Of a stretch of 10,339 nucleotides of DNA, positions 2,772-10,339 are shown one piece after another; the stretch's first letter is position 1; the number at the start of each line of letters is the position of its first letter. The position numbers were made by a program, and so were the translations under genes. Source of the DNA: an uncultured Thalassospira sp. Its GTDB lineage: Bacteria; Pseudomonadota; Alphaproteobacteria; Rhodospirillales_A; Thalassospiraceae. The stretch lies in the NCBI GenBank assembly GCA_946885765.1, contig CAMPHD010000083.1, positions 1 to 10,339 on the forward strand. The letters are read 5' to 3'. The notes beneath the pieces were generated by a model. That model saw only the letters and a program-made list of their open reading frames with translations. It had not been told where the DNA came from and made no database searches.

Positions 2772-3713
2772 TCAAGCCCGCTGAATGTACTTAAATTGGC
2801 CGGGGACCAACAACCTGACCGCATGTGGCGCCAATCCGATTTGACAAGGAAGTCGCCCGTGATGATCTCCATCAATCTGGACCTGCATACCTCGCTTACT
2901 GTCTGCACAGGAAATTGTGACCACACTTGTCGATACCACTTCAACATCGAGTTCCCGTTCCAGGCGACCACGGATCAGGCTCAATGCATAACGAACAAGA
3001 TCCCGCACCTTACCAGAACGGAGCATCACGACAACCAATCCCGGTTGTTGCAGTCCTGCACATTCCGACAGCACAAACGGCCCGCCATAGTGACAGGCAC
3101 GCGTGACAATCACTCCGGCCACCTGATACATTTCATCGCCAAGTCTGACATTGATCATGTCTCCCTGCCCGCGCAAGATTGTGCGCATTCCCTGCCAGAT
3201 ATATGCATATTTTCCAAACAGAGCTTTTGCTTGCGGCGAAACATTTGCCACCGTTTCCGCATCCGGGCCGGCACCGGTCATCAACATAAAGGCACAATCT
3301 CCGGACATGCCTGGTACGACCTCGATATCCGAAGGGGACTTCAGATATCCGACAATGTCGGAGACACGAGTTGTCATTCGGATTTCCCGTGCCAGCACAT
3401 TTGCCGTCCCGCTTGGGATAATCCCTATCGGGGGCGTCTGCCGTCCCAGTTTTCTGGTATCCATCAGGCCATTGACCACCTCATTGATCGTGCCATCCCC
3501 TCCAGCAACATAAACCGGAATGTCCGCAGGCATATCACGTACGAGTAAGCGCGCATGGCCGCGATAACCGGTCTCGTGAAGATTGGCCCGAACTTCTGCT
3601 CGCTCAAGAATGGTTTCAAGCCGCCCGCGCCGAAACCCGCCTGCTTTGGGGTTGACGATAACATTGATCACAGGACGGCCAGCCCTTATCGGGTCTGTTT
3701 TACCGCCCGGCAT
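2772..3713 (-). CDS. Diacylglycerol kinase family (YegS/DgkB-type) lipid kinase
   Basis: 313 residues from the ATG at 3713, chosen because AAGGA lies 8 bases upstream; in-frame ATGs at 3737 and 3773 lack one and would lengthen the overlap with the upstream gene. The fold is the soluble DAGK-catalytic type: 'VIVNPKAGG' (about 18-26) at the start of the domain, the nucleotide-binding 'VAGGDGTINEVVNGL' (about 69-83), and 'GIIPSGTANVLARE' (about 97-110). The C-terminal half carries the expected beta-rich lipid-kinase region, including 'MQVQIDGDHHG', where 'DGE' is the usual form. There is no membrane segment, unlike the small integral DgkA. It phosphorylates a lipid, probably diacylglycerol to phosphatidic acid, at the inner face of the inner membrane. 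Its start overlaps the end of the phosphoethanolamine transferase gene by 14 bases, implying translational coupling and recycling of the diacylglycerol that enzyme releases (inference). No other terminator follows it except the hairpin at 2660-2699. Confidence 0.88.
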   Translation of the reverse strand: MPGGKTDPIRAGRPVINVIVNPKAGGFRRGRLETILERAEVRANLHETGYRGHARLLVRDMPADIPVYVAGGDGTINEVVNGLMDTRKLGRQTPPIGIIPSGTANVLAREIRMTTRVSDIVGYLKSPSDIEVVPGMSGDCAFMLMTGAGPDAETVANVSPQAKALFGKYAYIWQGMRTILRGQGDMINVRLGDEMYQVAGVIVTRACHYGGPFVLSECAGLQQPGLVVVMLRSGKVRDLVRYALSLIRGRLERELDVEVVSTSVVTISCADSKRGMQVQIDGDHHGRLPCQIGLAPHAVRLLVPGQFKYIQRA

Positions 3714-5397
3714 AGTTGACGTCCTTTTTGTGCTCATCCGTACAGGCAGAAAAAATATCGGTAGCTGCGTCATATACCGACGTTTCGATCCCCATCAATC
3801 CTAGCGTGGTCGCAAAAATATTATCATGGGAATACGAACGGGAATGGCTGATATCCTCGACACAGGGCCTGCTGATTTGATGGTCATGTGCGAACCCGTC
3901 CGACATCCAGAACATCATTGGCACATGCGTCTGTTCCGATGGCGCAAGGAAATAGGGCGCACCATGCAGATACAGTCCCCCTTCACCAAGGGACTCACCA
4001 TGATCGGATACATATAAAAGTGCTGTGTTGTAATCCTGCTCGCGCAGTTGCAGTTCCTTGACCAGCCTGGCAATGACAAAATCGGTATACCGGATCGTAT
4101 TGTCATAGGTATTGACCAGTTCCTGCTGGGTACAGTTCTCGATATCGCTTTGCGGACAATCGGGCATGAAATAGCGGAATTTCTCGGTATAACGCTCGTA
4201 GTAGGTTGGACCGTGGCTTCCATTAAGGTGCAGGACAATCAGCCGACCCTGCCCATTCACGGCATCTTTGCGATCCAACTCCTGCGCCGCCACATCTACC
4301 AATAACTCGTCAAAACATAGTCCGTTGGCACACATTCCGGGAAAATCGTCTGCCGACAACGTCCGGTTCGGAATGCGGTCACACACCCCCTTGCACCCGC
4401 TGTCATTCTCACTCCAGAAAACATCGACCCCGGCCTTTGCCAAAACATCCAGAAGGTTCTCGGTGTGTTCGGCAATAGCTTCGTCATAATGGTCGCGCGT
4501 CATGGGCGAAAACATGCACGGCACCGAAACCGCCGTTGCCGTCCCGCATGATGTCACGTCCTGAAAGGCCACCATATCCGGGATCTTGCTGGTAAATTCG
4601 GACGTCGGTCGATCATATCCGTTCGCAGCCACACTCGCCGCACGGGCCGTCTCACCGACCACAAGGAAAATCAGTGTTGGTTTTTCCCCAACCGGCCGAA
4701 CCACCGCGTCATTGCCGATGGTGCGAAACGGAATTTGTCGCGAAAGAAACCGGCGTTTTCCGTACTGGATGCTTGCCATGATATAATTTACCGGCACGAC
4801 TTCCTTTCCGAGAATCTTGTTATTGCGTCCGACCGAAGCATAATCCTTGAAATAGCAGAAGCCGATGACACCAAGGCACAGGAACGCCATCGAAACCATC
4901 AACAATTTCTGCCCCAAACCGCGCCAGAATGACGTTGCATATCGTATCGGCAAAAGAATAAGGACCACCGCCGGAATAACCCCGGTCAGGATCAGCGACA
5001 TCACGGACTGCAAATTCACATAGGAAAGCGCCTCCCCCGGATTTGTCTGGGCAAAATTTGTGATCATGCTGCGATCAAACACGATCCCGTATCGGCTCAT
5101 GGCATAGCTGACGACCGACGACGTCAAAATTAAAAGAACAAAAAATGGCTTTAAAATCGGGCGGAATGAAAAAACGGTGAATGTCGCCATCAACCCGAAA
5201 AACAGGACAAAGGGTACGCTGGCGGCAAATACCGGATCAAATGCCTCCAATCCACGCAGGATCGAATAAAAATGTGCGATAACATCCCGATTAAAAACCA
5301 GAATGAAATACAATGTGATCAAACATAATACGATCCGATAGTCCGCAAGGCACTTTCGTCCCTCTGCAACAAACCGGGAATTCAAAAGATATTTCAT
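3700..5397 (-). CDS. EptA/MCR-type lipid A phosphoethanolamine transferase
   Basis: 565 residues, close to the usual 540-560. Five membrane segments are predicted in the first 185 residues (roughly 21-37, 56-76, 82-99, 132-150 and 164-183), with the family's N-terminal domain. The periplasmic alkaline-phosphatase-like domain runs from about 238 to 535. All expected zinc and catalytic residues are visible: Glu249 in VVGET, the phospho-acceptor Thr286 in TSCGTATAVSVPCMFS, His395 in LNGSHGPTYY, Asp465-His466 in VSDHGESLGE, and His478 in YLHGAPY. Many cysteines match the disulfides of this family. It moves phosphoethanolamine from phosphatidylethanolamine to lipid A or other envelope glycans, lowering negative charge and binding of cationic peptides. 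The exact acceptor cannot be told from sequence. The ribosome-binding site is weak; I keep this start because the next ATG (residue 70) would remove the first two membrane segments. It follows the PepSY gene by 116 bases. Confidence 0.93.
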   Translation of the reverse strand: MKYLLNSRFVAEGRKCLADYRIVLCLITLYFILVFNRDVIAHFYSILRGLEAFDPVFAASVPFVLFFGLMATFTVFSFRPILKPFFVLLILTSSVVSYAMSRYGIVFDRSMITNFAQTNPGEALSYVNLQSVMSLILTGVIPAVVLILLPIRYATSFWRGLGQKLLMVSMAFLCLGVIGFCYFKDYASVGRNNKILGKEVVPVNYIMASIQYGKRRFLSRQIPFRTIGNDAVVRPVGEKPTLIFLVVGETARAASVAANGYDRPTSEFTSKIPDMVAFQDVTSCGTATAVSVPCMFSPMTRDHYDEAIAEHTENLLDVLAKAGVDVFWSENDSGCKGVCDRIPNRTLSADDFPGMCANGLCFDELLVDVAAQELDRKDAVNGQGRLIVLHLNGSHGPTYYERYTEKFRYFMPDCPQSDIENCTQQELVNTYDNTIRYTDFVIARLVKELQLREQDYNTALLYVSDHGESLGEGGLYLHGAPYFLAPSEQTHVPMMFWMSDGFAHDHQISRPCVEDISHSRSYSHDNIFATTLGLMGIETSVYDAATDIFSACTDEHKKDVNYAGR

Positions 5398-5513
5398 TGG
5401 AAAGTTGTGTCCGTCTCGCGTGAGTCTATGCCACGCTTTCTGTCGTCTGCTCCAGCAACCGGCGCTGAAAAGGGACCAACAGGAAGGCCTGGCGCGTGGG
5501 CTGCCAACCAGGG

Positions 5514-5795
5514 TCAGTCGCCAGGCAGGCTCACAGGATCAAAGGTCTTGGGGTCGAAATAGGCTTCGACATCCACCCCATCTTTGGTTGTGGCGTAAAC
5601 TTCATAACAGCCATCATCCGTGGTGATTTTTCTGACATTCCATCCCTCGGATACGAGTTTCTGCTCCAGTTTTTCACGAGGCTGCCATTGATCCATGGGC
5701 ACGTCGCACATATCGGTCTCCGTAGCCGAAGCAGGTAGAACAACCGACAAGGCCAGAAACACTGTCCCAAGAACCTGCGCCAAAAGCGTTTTCAT
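5514..5795 (-). CDS. PepSY domain-containing secreted protein
   Basis: 93 residues. A signal peptide (about 1-24, ending ASA) precedes a small PepSY-like domain: 'CDVPMDQWQPREKLEQKLVSEGWNVRKITTDDGCYEVYATTKDGVDVEAYFDPKTFDPV'. Two cysteines (about residues 30 and 63) flank the domain and may form a disulfide in the periplasm. The ribosome-binding site GGGAG lies 7 bases before the ATG. PepSY proteins of this size are common beside two-component systems in proteobacteria, where a role in sensing or in modulating the kinase is suspected but not established. The gene is divergent from the response regulator gene and is the first gene of the leftward PepSY-eptA-kinase set, so it probably shares the regulator's control through the palindrome at 5849-5903. 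Confidence 0.85.
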   Translation of the reverse strand: MKTLLAQVLGTVFLALSVVLPASATETDMCDVPMDQWQPREKLEQKLVSEGWNVRKITTDDGCYEVYATTKDGVDVEAYFDPKTFDPVSLPGD

Positions 5796-5848
5796 GATGT
5801 AACTCCCGCTCCAATGTGAAAAACTCGTTCAGACGGAAGATGCCCATG

Positions 5849-5903
5849 TTTCCTGACACCAACCTGAACAGGAATGCGATCCGTTCAGTCTGGTGTCAGG
5901 AAA
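5849..5903. promoter_or_regulatory. 55-bp imperfect palindrome, likely divergent operator for the response regulator
   Basis: TTTCCTGACACCA (5849-5861) and TGGTGTCAGGAAA (5891-5903) are perfect inverted copies; CTGAAC (5864-5869) and GTTCAG (5883-5888) extend the pairing, so 19 of 21 arm positions match. Each arm read inward contains TCCTGA-N5-(A/G)(C/A)CTGA, that is two half-sites at 11-bp period, the geometry used by OmpR/PmrA-family dimers. It lies in the region shared by the divergent PepSY and response regulator genes. The alternative, a hairpin in the leader RNA, is less likely given the half-site pattern. Confidence 0.65.
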
Positions 5904-5908
5904 ACCTG

Positions 5909-5914
5909 TATAAG
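5909..5914 (+). promoter_or_regulatory. Candidate -10 element of the response regulator promoter
   Basis: TATAAG lies 5 bases after the right arm of the palindrome. At 17-base spacing the -35 position (5886-5891, CAGTCT) is a poor match and falls inside the arm, as expected for a promoter that needs the bound regulator. The start codon follows 37 bases later. Confidence 0.4.
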
Positions 5915-5950
5915 TGCCGCCACCTGCCGAAATGGCCAAAAGAGAAACAG

Positions 5951-6607
5951 ATGCGACTTCTTCTGATTGAGGATGAAAAAAATCTGGGAAATGCCGTCCG
6001 CGACAATCTATTGACTCAGGGACATGCCACAGACTGGGTGGAAACGATTGAGGATGCAGATAGCGCCATCATGACCACTCCCTATGACGTCATCCTGCTT
6101 GACCTCAATCTGCCGGATGGCCATGGCATTGAACTGCTGCGTCGATTGCGCATGCAGGGAGATACCACACCCTGCATTATTCTGACGGCACAGGACCAGA
6201 TCACCGACCGGATTAAGGGGCTCAATGCCGGGGCAGATGACTATATTGTCAAACCCTTTGATCTAGGGGAACTCGCGGCCCGACTGGCATCCGTCGCCCG
6301 GCGATATGCGGGAAATCCCAATCCCCTGCTACGCATTTCAAATGTCGAGATTGATCTGGCCAGACGGCATGTTCTTGTTGACAGCCGGATGGTCGAACTG
6401 ACCGCACGGGAATGGGCTTTGCTTGACCAGTTCGCCCGTCACCCCAGGACCATCCTGTCGAAAAGCCAGCTAGAGGAATCGCTGTACGAATTCGGTGCGG
6501 AAATCGAAAGCAATACGGTTGAAGTCTATGTCAGCCGATTGCGCAAAAAGATCGGCAGTCACTTGATCAAAACATTGCGCGGCATTGGTTACAGGCTGGA
6601 GGGATAA
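5951..6607 (+). CDS. OmpR/PmrA-family response regulator
   Basis: 218 residues from the ATG at 5951 (MRLLLIEDEKNLG); the frame is open further upstream to 5816, but that extension crosses the palindrome and does not resemble a receiver domain. The receiver domain (1-115) has the acidic pocket Glu7-Asp8, phospho-acceptor Asp51 in 'VILLDLNLPDGHG', switch residue Thr79 and Lys101 in 'DDYIVKPFDLGEL'. The C-terminal winged helix (about 125-218) includes 'LTAREWALLDQFARHP' and 'NTVEVYVSRLRKKIG', ending with the typical 'IKTLRGIGYRLEG'. It belongs to the QseB/PmrA/TctD-like group. The kinase gene starts 4 bases after its stop. Its likely targets are its own promoter and the divergent PepSY-eptA-kinase set (inference from the palindrome). 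The ribosome-binding site is weak (AGAGA). Confidence 0.93.
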   Translation: MRLLLIEDEKNLGNAVRDNLLTQGHATDWVETIEDADSAIMTTPYDVILLDLNLPDGHGIELLRRLRMQGDTTPCIILTAQDQITDRIKGLNAGADDYIVKPFDLGELAARLASVARRYAGNPNPLLRISNVEIDLARRHVLVDSRMVELTAREWALLDQFARHPRTILSKSQLEESLYEFGAEIESNTVEVYVSRLRKKIGSHLIKTLRGIGYRLEG

Positions 6608-6611
6608 GGTC

Positions 6612-7967
6612 ATGACCGCCATTATTCGGCATAGTCTTCTCGGTCAGATTGTTATCCGTGTCACCCTCTGCGTGTTTGCCCTCTGGCTGGTCGGCGCCAT
6701 ATTTGCAGCGGTTGTCATCAATGACGAACTTGGCGAGGCATTTGATACCGGGCTCCAGGAAACAGCGAGACGCACCCTGCCTTTGGCTGTTCAATTTCAC
6801 ATGAACCGCACGGACCAAGACGGGTCCACTCACATGCCTGCATTTTCTGCTGCGAACGGCTCCGCTCCACGTAGCGGGGAATACCTGATCTATCAATTGC
6901 GGGATCATGCCGGCAAAGTCGTCCTGCGCTCTCATGATACAACAGATATCCCGTTTCCAGCCCCTCTGATTGGCGGTTTCTGGGAAGATAGCGACTATCG
7001 CTATTACACCGAGGCCAGCATCAGTGGCAGCCTGTTTTTTCAGGTTGCCGAACCGATGGCTCACCGGCACGAGGCATCACTGGAGAGTTCTGCCGCCACC
7101 TTGTTGCCTCTCTCTGTACTTGTACCTGCAATTATAATTGCCATTTGGCTGAGCGTACGAAACGGCCTCTCCCCGGTACGTCTCCTGCGAGATGAAATTA
7201 GCCAGCGTGGCAGCGGCAATCTTGATCCGATCGATCTTGGTAAAACACCGCAAGAACTGGCCGACATGATTACTGCTATCAATAGCTTGCTCATCCGCCT
7301 GCGCTCTGCTCTGAATGCCGAACGCAACTTCGCCGCCAATAGCGCCCATGAATTGCGCACCCCTGTCGCAAGCGCCCTTGCTCAGACTCAGCAGTTACTT
7401 CTGGAAATCCACGAAAACAATCCTGCCCGAAAACGCGCTCAGAAAGTTGAAATGTCGCTGAACCGGCTTGCCCGACTTTCGGAAAAACTTCTGCAATGGT
7501 CTCGCGCCGAATCCGGGCTGGGCAGAAGCAGCGAGACACATGACCTGACTCCGATCATCCGGATGGTTCTTGACGATATCGAACGCAGCCGCCGATACGA
7601 CAATCATGTGGTTCTGGCCTCCCAAAGCGTTTCGCTGAAAGCAGCGATTGACCCGGATGCGTTTGGCATTTGCTTTCGAAACCTGCTTGAAAATGCACTT
7701 GGACATGGCAGTAACAGCGAACCTGTATATGTCGTCGTCGACACTTCGAACAGAATATGCGTTGAAAATGCGGGCCCTGTTATCCCGAAAACACTTCTCT
7801 CGCGCCTGACCAACCGTTTTGAACGGCACGGCCACCATCCAGACAGCACAGGCCTTGGTCTGTCGATCACATCAACAATTATTGCCCAGGCTGGTGGCGT
7901 ACTTGAACTCTGTTCACCCCGCCCGGAGATGTCCGATGGCTTTTCGGCTACTATCATATTTGACTAG
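6612..7967 (+). CDS. Sensor histidine kinase (PmrB/QseC-like)
   Basis: 451 residues from the ATG at 6612, with GGAGGG and AAGG motifs just upstream. One membrane segment at about 11-37 and a second at about 161-183 bracket a periplasmic sensor of about 120 residues, followed by a HAMP-like linker. The dimerisation/phospho-acceptor domain has the H-box 'NSAHELRTPVASALAQ' with His246. The ATPase domain has the N-box 'FRNLLENALGHG' (Asn357, Asn361) and the G2 box 'STGLGLSIT' (about 412-420). The G1 box reads VENAGPVI, where DxGxG is usual; related kinases also vary here, so activity is not excluded. It should phosphorylate the regulator encoded just upstream. The periplasmic sensor has no acidic iron-binding ExxE pattern that I can see, so its signal is unknown; the PepSY protein is a candidate partner (inference). 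Confidence 0.92.
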   Translation: MTAIIRHSLLGQIVIRVTLCVFALWLVGAIFAAVVINDELGEAFDTGLQETARRTLPLAVQFHMNRTDQDGSTHMPAFSAANGSAPRSGEYLIYQLRDHAGKVVLRSHDTTDIPFPAPLIGGFWEDSDYRYYTEASISGSLFFQVAEPMAHRHEASLESSAATLLPLSVLVPAIIIAIWLSVRNGLSPVRLLRDEISQRGSGNLDPIDLGKTPQELADMITAINSLLIRLRSALNAERNFAANSAHELRTPVASALAQTQQLLLEIHENNPARKRAQKVEMSLNRLARLSEKLLQWSRAESGLGRSSETHDLTPIIRMVLDDIERSRRYDNHVVLASQSVSLKAAIDPDAFGICFRNLLENALGHGSNSEPVYVVVDTSNRICVENAGPVIPKTLLSRLTNRFERHGHHPDSTGLGLSITSTIIAQAGGVLELCSPRPEMSDGFSATIIFD

Positions 7968-8064
7968 TATGAATCGTGCCCGATGAAAGCAGAAAACAAC
8001 CCACAACCACTTGTGTATGTCCGACTCATTGCAACACAATCGTCACGCGGCCTTGTCCACCTGT

Positions 8065-8073
8065 TTATCCACA
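8065..8073 (+). promoter_or_regulatory. DnaA-box 9-mer
   Basis: TTATCCACA is an exact match to the strongest DnaA-binding 9-mer. A weaker relative, TTGTCCACC (8053-8061, 7 of 9), lies 12 bases upstream in the same orientation. DnaA regulates ribonucleotide reductase genes in some bacteria, but the site is more than 600 bases from the nrdJ start. Confidence 0.35.
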
Positions 8074-8208
8074 GCATTTCAAGGTCTTCGGTCCTGAGTG
8101 CGCCCTGCCCGGCTTGAAAATTCGCGCCGTATAAAAACAATGATTTTCATATAAATATCAAAATGTTATCTGACATTCCCGTGCTAATAACATCATCGGG
8201 ACAGGATT

Positions 8209-8362
8209 GTTTGCGCTTGATACTGGATTTCAAACGCAAACAGCGTTAGCTTTGTTTTGCGTTGTGGGGGTCATCTCGTCCCGGCACAAGATGTAGTCCG
8301 AGTCTTATGGACTTGCGATGGCACCCCCATCGGCAAAAGCGCAGTATTCCGCGGGCTTGCGG
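8209..8362 (+). ncRNA. Candidate structured RNA upstream of nrdJ (unnamed)
   Basis: GGGGGT (8266-8271) pairs with ACCCCC (8323-8328); inside lie two hairpins, CATCT/AGATG (8272-8276 with 8289-8293) and AGTCC/GGACT (8295-8299 with 8309-8313), giving a three-way junction. An outer pairing TTTTGC/GCAAAA (8255-8260 with 8333-8338) extends the closing stem. Upstream, GTTTGCG (8209-8215) pairs with CGCAAAC (8235-8241), and the latter can pair with TTTGCG (8256-8261) instead, so alternative folds exclude each other. A small GC hairpin CCGC/GCGG (8349-8352 with 8359-8362) followed by GCGTTT ends the region. No B12-box (GCCACTG) is present, so it is not a standard cobalamin riboswitch. Strand is assumed from nrdJ. 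Confidence 0.42.
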
Positions 8363-8422
8363 CGCGTTTAAACAATCTTAACGAGATTTTCCAAACATCA
8401 GATATGCGCGACATCGATTGAA

Positions 8423-8470
8423 CCACTACATCTAGTGATAAAAATCGCTGTCAACCACAAAGTTTGGTGG
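8423..8470 (+). promoter_or_regulatory. Tandem NrdR-box-like operator
   Basis: Box 1, CCACTACATCTAGTGA (8423-8438), matches 12 of 16 positions of the NrdR consensus as I remember it (acaCwAtATaTwGtgt) and has perfect CACTA/TAGTG arms. Box 2, CCACAAAGTTTGGTGG (8455-8470), matches 10 of 16 with perfect CCAC/GTGG ends. Their starts are 32 bp apart, the characteristic spacing of paired NrdR boxes, about three helical turns. NrdR is the ATP/dATP-sensing repressor of ribonucleotide reductase genes, which fits nrdJ downstream. A TTGAAC -35-like sequence overlaps the first box at 8418-8423. Confidence 0.62.
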
Positions 8471-8618
8471 ACTACCCCGAATTTTTGGCCTTATAGTTCT
8501 GGCTACGGACCGGATGGTTCCAAGGGGGGACCACCACCACAGATTACCGAATTCCGTTCGCCCAAACATGGCCATTTTATAAAGGTCAGGGGGCAGCGTA
8601 TGAGCGTTGAGCAAACTA

Positions 8619-8624
8619 TATAAT
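8619..8624 (+). promoter_or_regulatory. Perfect TATAAT element upstream of nrdJ
   Basis: An exact -10 hexamer, 60 bases before the nrdJ ATG. The -35 position at 17-base spacing is poor. The surrounding 16 bases (8613-8628) also match the remembered NrdR consensus at 12 of 16 positions, so this could be a promoter covered by a further repressor box, or chance in an AT-rich patch. Confidence 0.35.
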
Positions 8625-8684
8625 GTTCAGGCCGTGTTGGTGCTTATGCGCACGACATCAAGTCTGACCAAAACGGAGCAGACC

Positions 8685-10339
8685 ATGCGGATCAGCAGAA
8701 AGTTCACTCAGGAAGGTGTCAGCCCTTACGCCGACATCGATTTTCGTAAGTCGTCCTGCGTCATCAAAAACCCCGACGGCTCGGTTGTTTTTGAAATGAA
8801 AGATATCGACGTCCCGTCATCCTGGTCGCAGGTGGCAAGTGACGTCCTTGCGCAGAAATACTTCCGAAAGGCGGGTGTTCCGGTCGCGCTGAAACCGGTC
8901 AAGGAAAAGGACGTTCCGTCCTGGCTCTGGCGTCAGGCACCTGACAAGTCCAAGCTCGAAAAAATGCCGTCGGAATCGCGTTATATCAGCGAAACCAGTG
9001 CCACTCAGGTCTTTGACCGTCTGGCTGGCACCTGGACCTATTGGGGCTGGAAAGGCGGCTATTTCGATGCCGAATCCGATGCGCAGGCTTTCTTCGATGA
9101 AATGCGCTATCAGCTTTCCCACCAGATGGGTGCGCCGAACTCGCCGCAATGGTTCAATACCGGTCTGCATTGGGCATATGGCATTGATGGCCCGGCACAG
9201 GGTCACTCCTATGTCGATTACAAAACCGGCGAACTGACCAAATCGGCCAGTGCCTACGAACATCCGCAGCCCCATGCCTGCTTCATCCAGTCGGTTTCCG
9301 ATGACCTCGTGAACGAGGGTGGCATCATGGATCTCTGGACCCGTGAAGCCCGCCTGTTCAAATTCGGTTCGGGCACCGGTTCGAACTTCTCGCATGTGCG
9401 CGGCGAAGGCGAAACCCTGTCGGGTGGCGGCCGTTCTTCGGGCCTCATGAGCTTCCTTAAAATCGGGGACCGCGCAGCGGGCGCGATCAAGTCGGGCGGC
9501 ACCACGCGCCGTGCGGCCAAAATGGTCGTGGTGGATATCAACCACCCGGACATCGAAAACTATATCGACTGGAAAGTCGTCGAAGAACAGAAGGTCGCGG
9601 CCCTTGTCGCCGGTTCGAAACTGGCCGAAAAGCACCTGACCGACGTTCTCGCAGCCTGCACCAACTGGGACGGTGCCGCCGATTCCGAGGATCGCTTCCT
9701 GCCGCGTGCCAACCCGCAGCTCAAAGAAGCCGTGCTGGCCGCCCGTGCCGAGATGATCCCGGATAGCTAGATCAACAAGATCATCGAATTCGCCCGTCAG
9801 GGCTTCACCGAAATCAGCTTCAAGACCTACGACACCGATTGGGACTCCGAAGCATACCTGACCGTTTCCGGTCAGAACTCGAACAACTCGGTTCGCGTCT
9901 CGAACGACTTCCTTCAGGCTGTTCTTGATAACGGTGACTGGGAACTGATCCGCCGCACCGATGGCAAGGTTTCCAAAACCCTTGCCGCCCGCGAATTGTG
10001 GGACAAGGTCGGCGAAGCTGCATGGGCCTGTGCTGATCCGGGCATCCAGTACGACACCACGATCAACGAATGGCACACCTGCCCGAATTCGGGTCGCATC
10101 AATGCGTCCAACCCGTGCTCGGAATATATGTTCATTGACGATACGGCCTGTAACCTGGCCTCGATGAACCTGATGAACTTCCGTTCGGATGATGGTGGCG
10201 TTGATGTCACGGCATACGAACATGCCGTGCGTCTCTGGACCGTCGTTCTGGAAATCTCGGTTCTGATGGCGCAGTTCCCGTCGGATCGTATTGCCGAACT
10301 GTCCTATCGTTACCGCACGCTTGGCCTTGGCTATGCCAA
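8685..10339 (+). CDS. nrdJ: Adenosylcobalamin-dependent (class II) ribonucleotide reductase NrdJ, interrupted by an in-frame TAG and cut by the right edge
   Basis: The ATG at 8685 has GGAG 6 bases upstream and gives the usual alphaproteobacterial NrdJ start (MRISRKFTQEGVSPYADIDF); the frame opens earlier, at a TTG, without support. Codons 1-361 read normally, codon 362 is TAG (9768-9770), then the same frame stays open to the window edge with full family similarity, about 551 codons of the roughly 1,200 usual. Visible motifs: 'NSPQWFNTGLHWAYGI' (152-167), Cys199 in HACFIQS (first redox cysteine by analogy with class I Cys225), 'FGSGTGSNFSHVRGEG' (about 227-242), and after the stop 'NPCSEYMF', whose Asn476, Cys478 and Glu480 correspond to the class I triad with the thiyl-radical cysteine, then 'DDTACNLASMNL' with Cys489. 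It reduces ribonucleotides to deoxyribonucleotides using adenosylcobalamin in the cytosol. The product ending at 361 would lack Cys478 and Cys489 and so cannot be active. The gene may be a pseudogene, or the base may be wrong. Confidence 0.9.
9768..9770 (+). other. In-frame TAG stop within nrdJ (codon 362)
   Basis: The context is ATGATCCCGGATAGC-TAG-ATCAACAAGATC, read MIPDS-stop-INKI. Related NrdJ proteins as I remember them have Tyr at this position ('IP-x-x-Y-I-x-x-I-I-x-FARQG'), so one C-to-G or T-to-G change in a TAC/TAT codon explains it. There is no nearby frameshift and codon use is unchanged on both sides. Confidence 0.9.

Follow-up and report, generated by a model that had tools for sequence, protein, structure and literature searches.

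The last 1.7 kb of the window (our term for the whole 10,339-nucleotide stretch of DNA analysed, from an uncultured Thalassospira sp.) comprise the first ~550 codons of nrdJ, the gene for the class II, adenosylcobalamin-dependent ribonucleotide reductase, and this frame is interrupted by an in-frame TAG (Table 1). We tentatively read the interruption as a nonsense mutation that arose recently in this strain alone and is tolerated thanks to a class I reductase, and give this reading a probability of about 0.48. The initial annotation had named three options, namely, a sequence error, a recent pseudogene with another reductase taking over, and amber suppression, and these were the right ones to weigh. 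Because relatives possess a second enzyme, an ordinary broken copy or a sequencing error is most likely, rather than a new reading of the code.

Table 1. Features of the nrdJ region (positions are those of the window)
Feature	Position	Strand	Evidence or remark
nrdJ upstream region	7993..8684	+	No sign of decay
nrdJ 5' piece, 361 sense codons from ATG 8685	8685..9767	+	NF005736 positions 1-358, 677 bits; PF08471, PF02867
In-frame TAG, nrdJ codon 362	9768..9770	+	Tyr in relatives
nrdJ 3' continuation, same frame, cut by window end	9771..10339	+	NF005736 positions 361-550, 361 bits; PF02867
NPCSE, codons 476-480, downstream of TAG	10110..10124	+	Translation

Translation confirms the arrangement first described for this locus: 361 codons, the TAG, and at least 189 more codons, with the NPCSE motif, which we take to be the active-site motif of the reductase, encountered only past the stop, such that no single open frame runs through the catalytic residues. 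The 189 full codons that follow the TAG are open to position 10337, with no further stop, and a longer frame could begin upstream at TTG 8607. Both pieces match NF005736, the NCBIfam model of the B12-dependent reductase (1,222 positions), and since the second match resumes at model position 361 after the first ends at 358, no other sequence has been lost there. Neither piece reaches the curated cut-off of the model, the window stopping mid-gene: a full nrdJ has about 1,240 codons (frames of 1,234 to 1,265 in 28 Thalassospira genomes), so with the window ending at 10339, more than half of the gene lies outside the view. Eight neighbouring genes have Pfam matches, and their frames are all open over the extent visible in the window. 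The gene resembles alphaproteobacterial NrdJ (NF005736; structures 7b9p and 7b9q) both in its active-site motif and in the sequence flanking the TAG; it differs in the TAG itself at codon 362, where alignment of the intact protein of the Thalassospira genome G008 with the solved relative shows Tyr in the latter. The TAG sits in a stretch of ~88 residues (codons 306 to 393; positions 9600 to 9863) that the Pfam model of the reductase barrel skips and that, by the same alignment, exists in the solved relative 7b9p.

Close relatives uniformly have a sense codon at the site of the stop. All 22 aligned Thalassospira genomes (of 29 in the genus set, leaving out G022, in which the gene is cut, and G004, G007, G009, G010, G011, and G023) have a Tyr codon there and none has TAG. 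A wider scan of genome contigs, in which the best 80 loci were compared, recovered Tyr at 67 and Phe, Leu, Val, Ser, Ile, Ala, or Met at the other 13, with a stop at none; the two best-ranked loci belong to Thalassospira, with proteins 93% identical along the first piece, and L001 and L002 are counted in both the 80 loci and the 22 genomes. Tyr was thus correctly anticipated as the family residue, and the sense codon in 22 of 22 genomes and 80 of 80 loci makes the TAG look both private and young. The frame of NrdJ is complete and stop-free in 28 of the 29 genus genomes searched, the copy in G022 running off a contig end (C53:105484), and loss of nrdJ was seen in none of the 29. A survey of 289 alphaproteobacterial genomes gave 181 matches in 177 genomes at E <= 1e-100, and no internal stop occurred at the 150 best of these 181 places (the 31 weakest falling outside), from which we conclude that broken copies of nrdJ are rare.

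By DNA identity over 2,347 bases, the nearest genomes are G008 (95.6%), G029 (95.5%), G019 (93.8%), and G028 (92.7%), and the tree places the window in a clade with these four (support, 100/99), with no resolution within the clade. A protein database search with the 361-residue piece, the length limits of which leave out full-length relatives, had a top identity of 82% over 90% of the query among the best 120 of 6,912 matches. Searches of the literature collection used here, on the Thalassospira ribonucleotide reductase and on premature stops or pseudogenes in nrdJ, found nothing on such a case; the report recovered for Thalassospira looked unrelated by title and abstract, and the one recovered for nrdJ deals with an intein in nrdJ and a stop in another gene.

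The argument that a true stop would be lethal assumed NrdJ to be the only aerobic reductase of the genome, a premise contradicted in close kin. The class II gene is present in all 29 Thalassospira genomes, but the large subunit of class I also occurs in 18 of 29, with a short form (frames of 632 to 645 aa) in 12, a long form (988 to 1,040 aa) in 8, and both forms in 2, and these 18 genomes also encode the small subunit. Each of the four nearest relatives has a short NrdA of the 645-aa type adjoining NrdB, in addition to an intact nrdJ; in G008, whose NrdA and NrdB measure 626 and 362 aa from ATG and which is the one of the four in which class I proteins were compared with family models, both subunits score above the NCBIfam cut-offs (alpha, 1,009 versus 620 bits; beta, 571 versus 237 bits). 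Since all four carry this pair, it is very likely, on grounds of kinship, that the strain represented by the window has another reductase able to function in air. The recommended search for other reductases was thus positive, in relatives, for class I and negative for class III (PF13597), which was detected in none of the 29 genus genomes by a search that was positive in 6 of 14 control genomes.

The reductase set varies across the genus, with class II only in 11 of 29 genomes, class II plus the short class I pair in 10, plus the long pair in 6, and plus both in 2. On a 423-kb contig of G029 (C1; loci L144, L145, and L141), six tRNA genes lie in a row, and the contig also carries a short histidine-tRNA-ligase-like frame and a further class I pair (691 and 345 aa); our guess is that the contig may represent a large phage or a mobile element of another kind.

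On the nonsense reading, which requires that the base is real and that the strain shares the class I genes of its clade, the TAG would end translation of NrdJ at codon 362 of ~1,240. No active NrdJ would be made, because the cut precedes the catalytic residues, and the strain would survive because its clade also carries the oxygen-dependent class I enzyme (short NrdA plus NrdB). Class I reductases depend on oxygen and class II reductases do not (PMC4520616 and PMC3019208), so loss of nrdJ is expected to cost anoxic growth, and with class III in none of the 29 genomes, we infer that anoxic growth would be lost. Directly observed are the stop, the intact flanks, and the class I genes of relatives. 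In its single private stop, its conserved upstream region, and the second enzyme of the clade, the locus resembles an ordinary nonsense allele or pseudogene with a backup; it differs in that the allele is putative and that no other broken nrdJ occurs among the 28 complete frames of the genus. The latter count, like the rarity of broken copies class-wide, argues against the nonsense reading, 28 of 29 genomes having complete frames though class I is present in 18. Were the stop real, the strain would live on oxygen-dependent class I alone; in a genus in which 11 of 29 genomes have NrdJ only and none has class III, the oxygen-indifferent enzyme would then have been lost naturally, a small instance of reductase exchange.

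An error in base calling or consensus during assembly, with the real nrdJ intact as in relatives, is a serious contender that we put somewhat short of an even chance and that would matter for the record only. It would explain a lone odd base in a gene that is open in 28 genus genomes and at the 150 best of 181 places class-wide. The window stops mid-gene 569 bases past the TAG, as draft contigs do, and it is absent from the mobile DNA searched: no viral contig has an exact match to the 42-base string around the stop, plasmid matches to the window are only 72 to 76% identical, and phages gave no match. The dN/dS values relative to the four nearest relatives are low on both sides of the TAG (0.024 to 0.079 before it and 0.063 to 0.076 after), which indicates that the frame on both sides is more than chance and is as expected if the gene is intact. 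Against an error, no other frame break occurs in the window genes examined, and 19 of the 25 private nrdJ differences, stop included, fall at third codon positions, as in true evolution, a bias that would leave room for only a few errors.

Private codon changes, defined as changes in just one of five sequences (the window and its four nearest relatives) and excluding the stop codon, bear on both of these readings. In nrdJ, replacement and silent codons number 6:17 in the window and 5:64 in the four relatives pooled (Fisher p = 0.026), an excess of replacements in the window that speaks for the nonsense reading. The five flanking genes of the window, at 9:24, show the same ratio as its nrdJ (p = 1.0), and so nrdJ does not stand out as specially relaxed in this sequence; scattered base errors would raise replacements in the flanks and nrdJ alike, as would a faster-evolving lineage. 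The flanking genes of the relatives, pooled, stand at 49:107 (p = 0.68 versus the window), with 46 of the 49 replacements contributed by G019 and G028, and those of G008 and G029 together at 3:34. Four of the window's nrdJ replacements are at sites identical in the 22 other genomes, a tally that counts changed positions, such that a doubly changed codon makes two entries, and in which G002 likewise has 4 entries and G026 has 12. By a hand estimate, it is not unusual for two private replacements, the stop being one, to fall within 20 bases. As a test, the private changes fail to discriminate between relaxed selection and a handful of base errors.

Both of the remaining explanations, under which NrdJ would still be functional, are unlikely. 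Translation of the full protein by way of a suppressor tRNA with a CUA anticodon, or through a leaky stop, is improbable, despite two features that would accommodate it: dN/dS remains low after the stop, and the site is tolerant, the 13 of 80 loci with residues other than Tyr implying that many suppressors could restore function. TAG, however, is an ordinary stop, because it terminates the mlaD-like gene of the window and, at the identical position, that of each of the four nearest relatives (G008, G029, G019, and G028), and at the nrdJ site it is not conserved (0 of 22). A tRNA pattern with a CUA anticodon was run over the 29 genomes and produced eight matches in the four nearest, of which five are tRNA-Arg(UCU) matched with the register off by one base (ARAGORN identified four, at L163, L172, L188, and L189, and a string identical to confirmed ones marks the fifth, in G008), one lies inside a tRNA-Gln gene, and two are not tRNAs; the pattern requires that an A follow the anticodon and that the T loop be standard, strict enough that an odd suppressor tRNA would escape it. 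Among the matches in the other 25 genomes, ARAGORN, applied to L147, L148, L173, and L174, returned one tRNA-Arg(UCU) and, for the other three, no tRNA at the match. As a control, the corresponding pattern for the Tyr anticodon finds tRNA-Tyr, which ARAGORN confirms, in G019 and G028, and G008 and G029 contain an identical string. With no CUA tRNA found by this pattern in the four nearest relatives, the amber suppression option of the initial annotation gains no support, and its remark that no special stem-loop lies near the TAG holds, the 120 bases from 9741 folding no better than shuffled sequences (z = -0.34). A search for PylS, as a sign of pyrrolysine use, gave nothing over the cut-off in the 29 genomes and a weak match far below it in each; the best of these, in G029 (45 bits versus a cut-off of 178), is closer to histidine-tRNA ligase (hisS, 132 bits, also under its own cut-off). 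We regard as very improbable the variant in which an amber suppressor tRNA was gained horizontally, for example, from a tRNA-rich contig like that of G029, and NrdJ is made only via suppression; if true, it would tie B12-dependent DNA-precursor synthesis to the acquired element.

The two pieces of nrdJ could alternatively be separate, cooperating chains, like NrdJa and NrdJb of Pseudomonas aeruginosa, a possibility that we consider most doubtful. Codon 362 falls inside the stretch (~306 to 393) skipped by the barrel model, so that the barrel itself could survive a cut at this point, and a CTG at 9858 (codon 392) stands just ahead of the second barrel piece, which begins at codon 394. CTG is a rare start codon, and by eye, the 15 bases before it contain no ribosome site; the first in-frame ATG, GTG, or TTG past the TAG is TTG 9996 (codon 438), ~44 codons into the second barrel piece, and thus no such start codon adjoins the break. 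Split class II enzymes do exist, and in NrdJa-NrdJb, cofactor, substrate, and effector binding all reside in the first chain (PMC4520616). The window shares with this system a class II reductase frame in two pieces but differs in the point of the cut and in having only a CTG near the break.

Returning to the nonsense mutation as the preferred reading, the DNA ahead of nrdJ is conserved, with positions 7993 to 8690 being 93.8% identical to G008 and 93.1% identical to G029. No riboswitch was recognized upstream of nrdJ by Rfam, either at the gathering threshold or at E <= 1, and an alignment of the leader (15 rows, the window and 14 relatives) shows hardly any covariation. Well conserved in this alignment are palindrome-like boxes at 8423 to 8437 and 8455 to 8470, ~32 bases apart (another is at 8285 to 8298), and the first two, which resemble tandem NrdR boxes, are candidates for such sites.

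An NDUFA12-like gene precedes nrdJ, and the order is that of near relatives apart from an apparent insertion. Between these two genes the window has ~5.2 kb (2775 to 7992), as against some 90 bases in G008 and G029, and this segment, which by comparison of sequences looks like a strain-specific insertion, encodes a diacylglycerol-kinase-like protein, an EptA-like phosphoethanolamine transferase, a 93-aa open reading frame, a response regulator, and a histidine kinase. More distant EptA-like DNA occurs within 12 kb of nrdJ at L001 and L002 (67% identity) and in G019 (75% over 305 bases).
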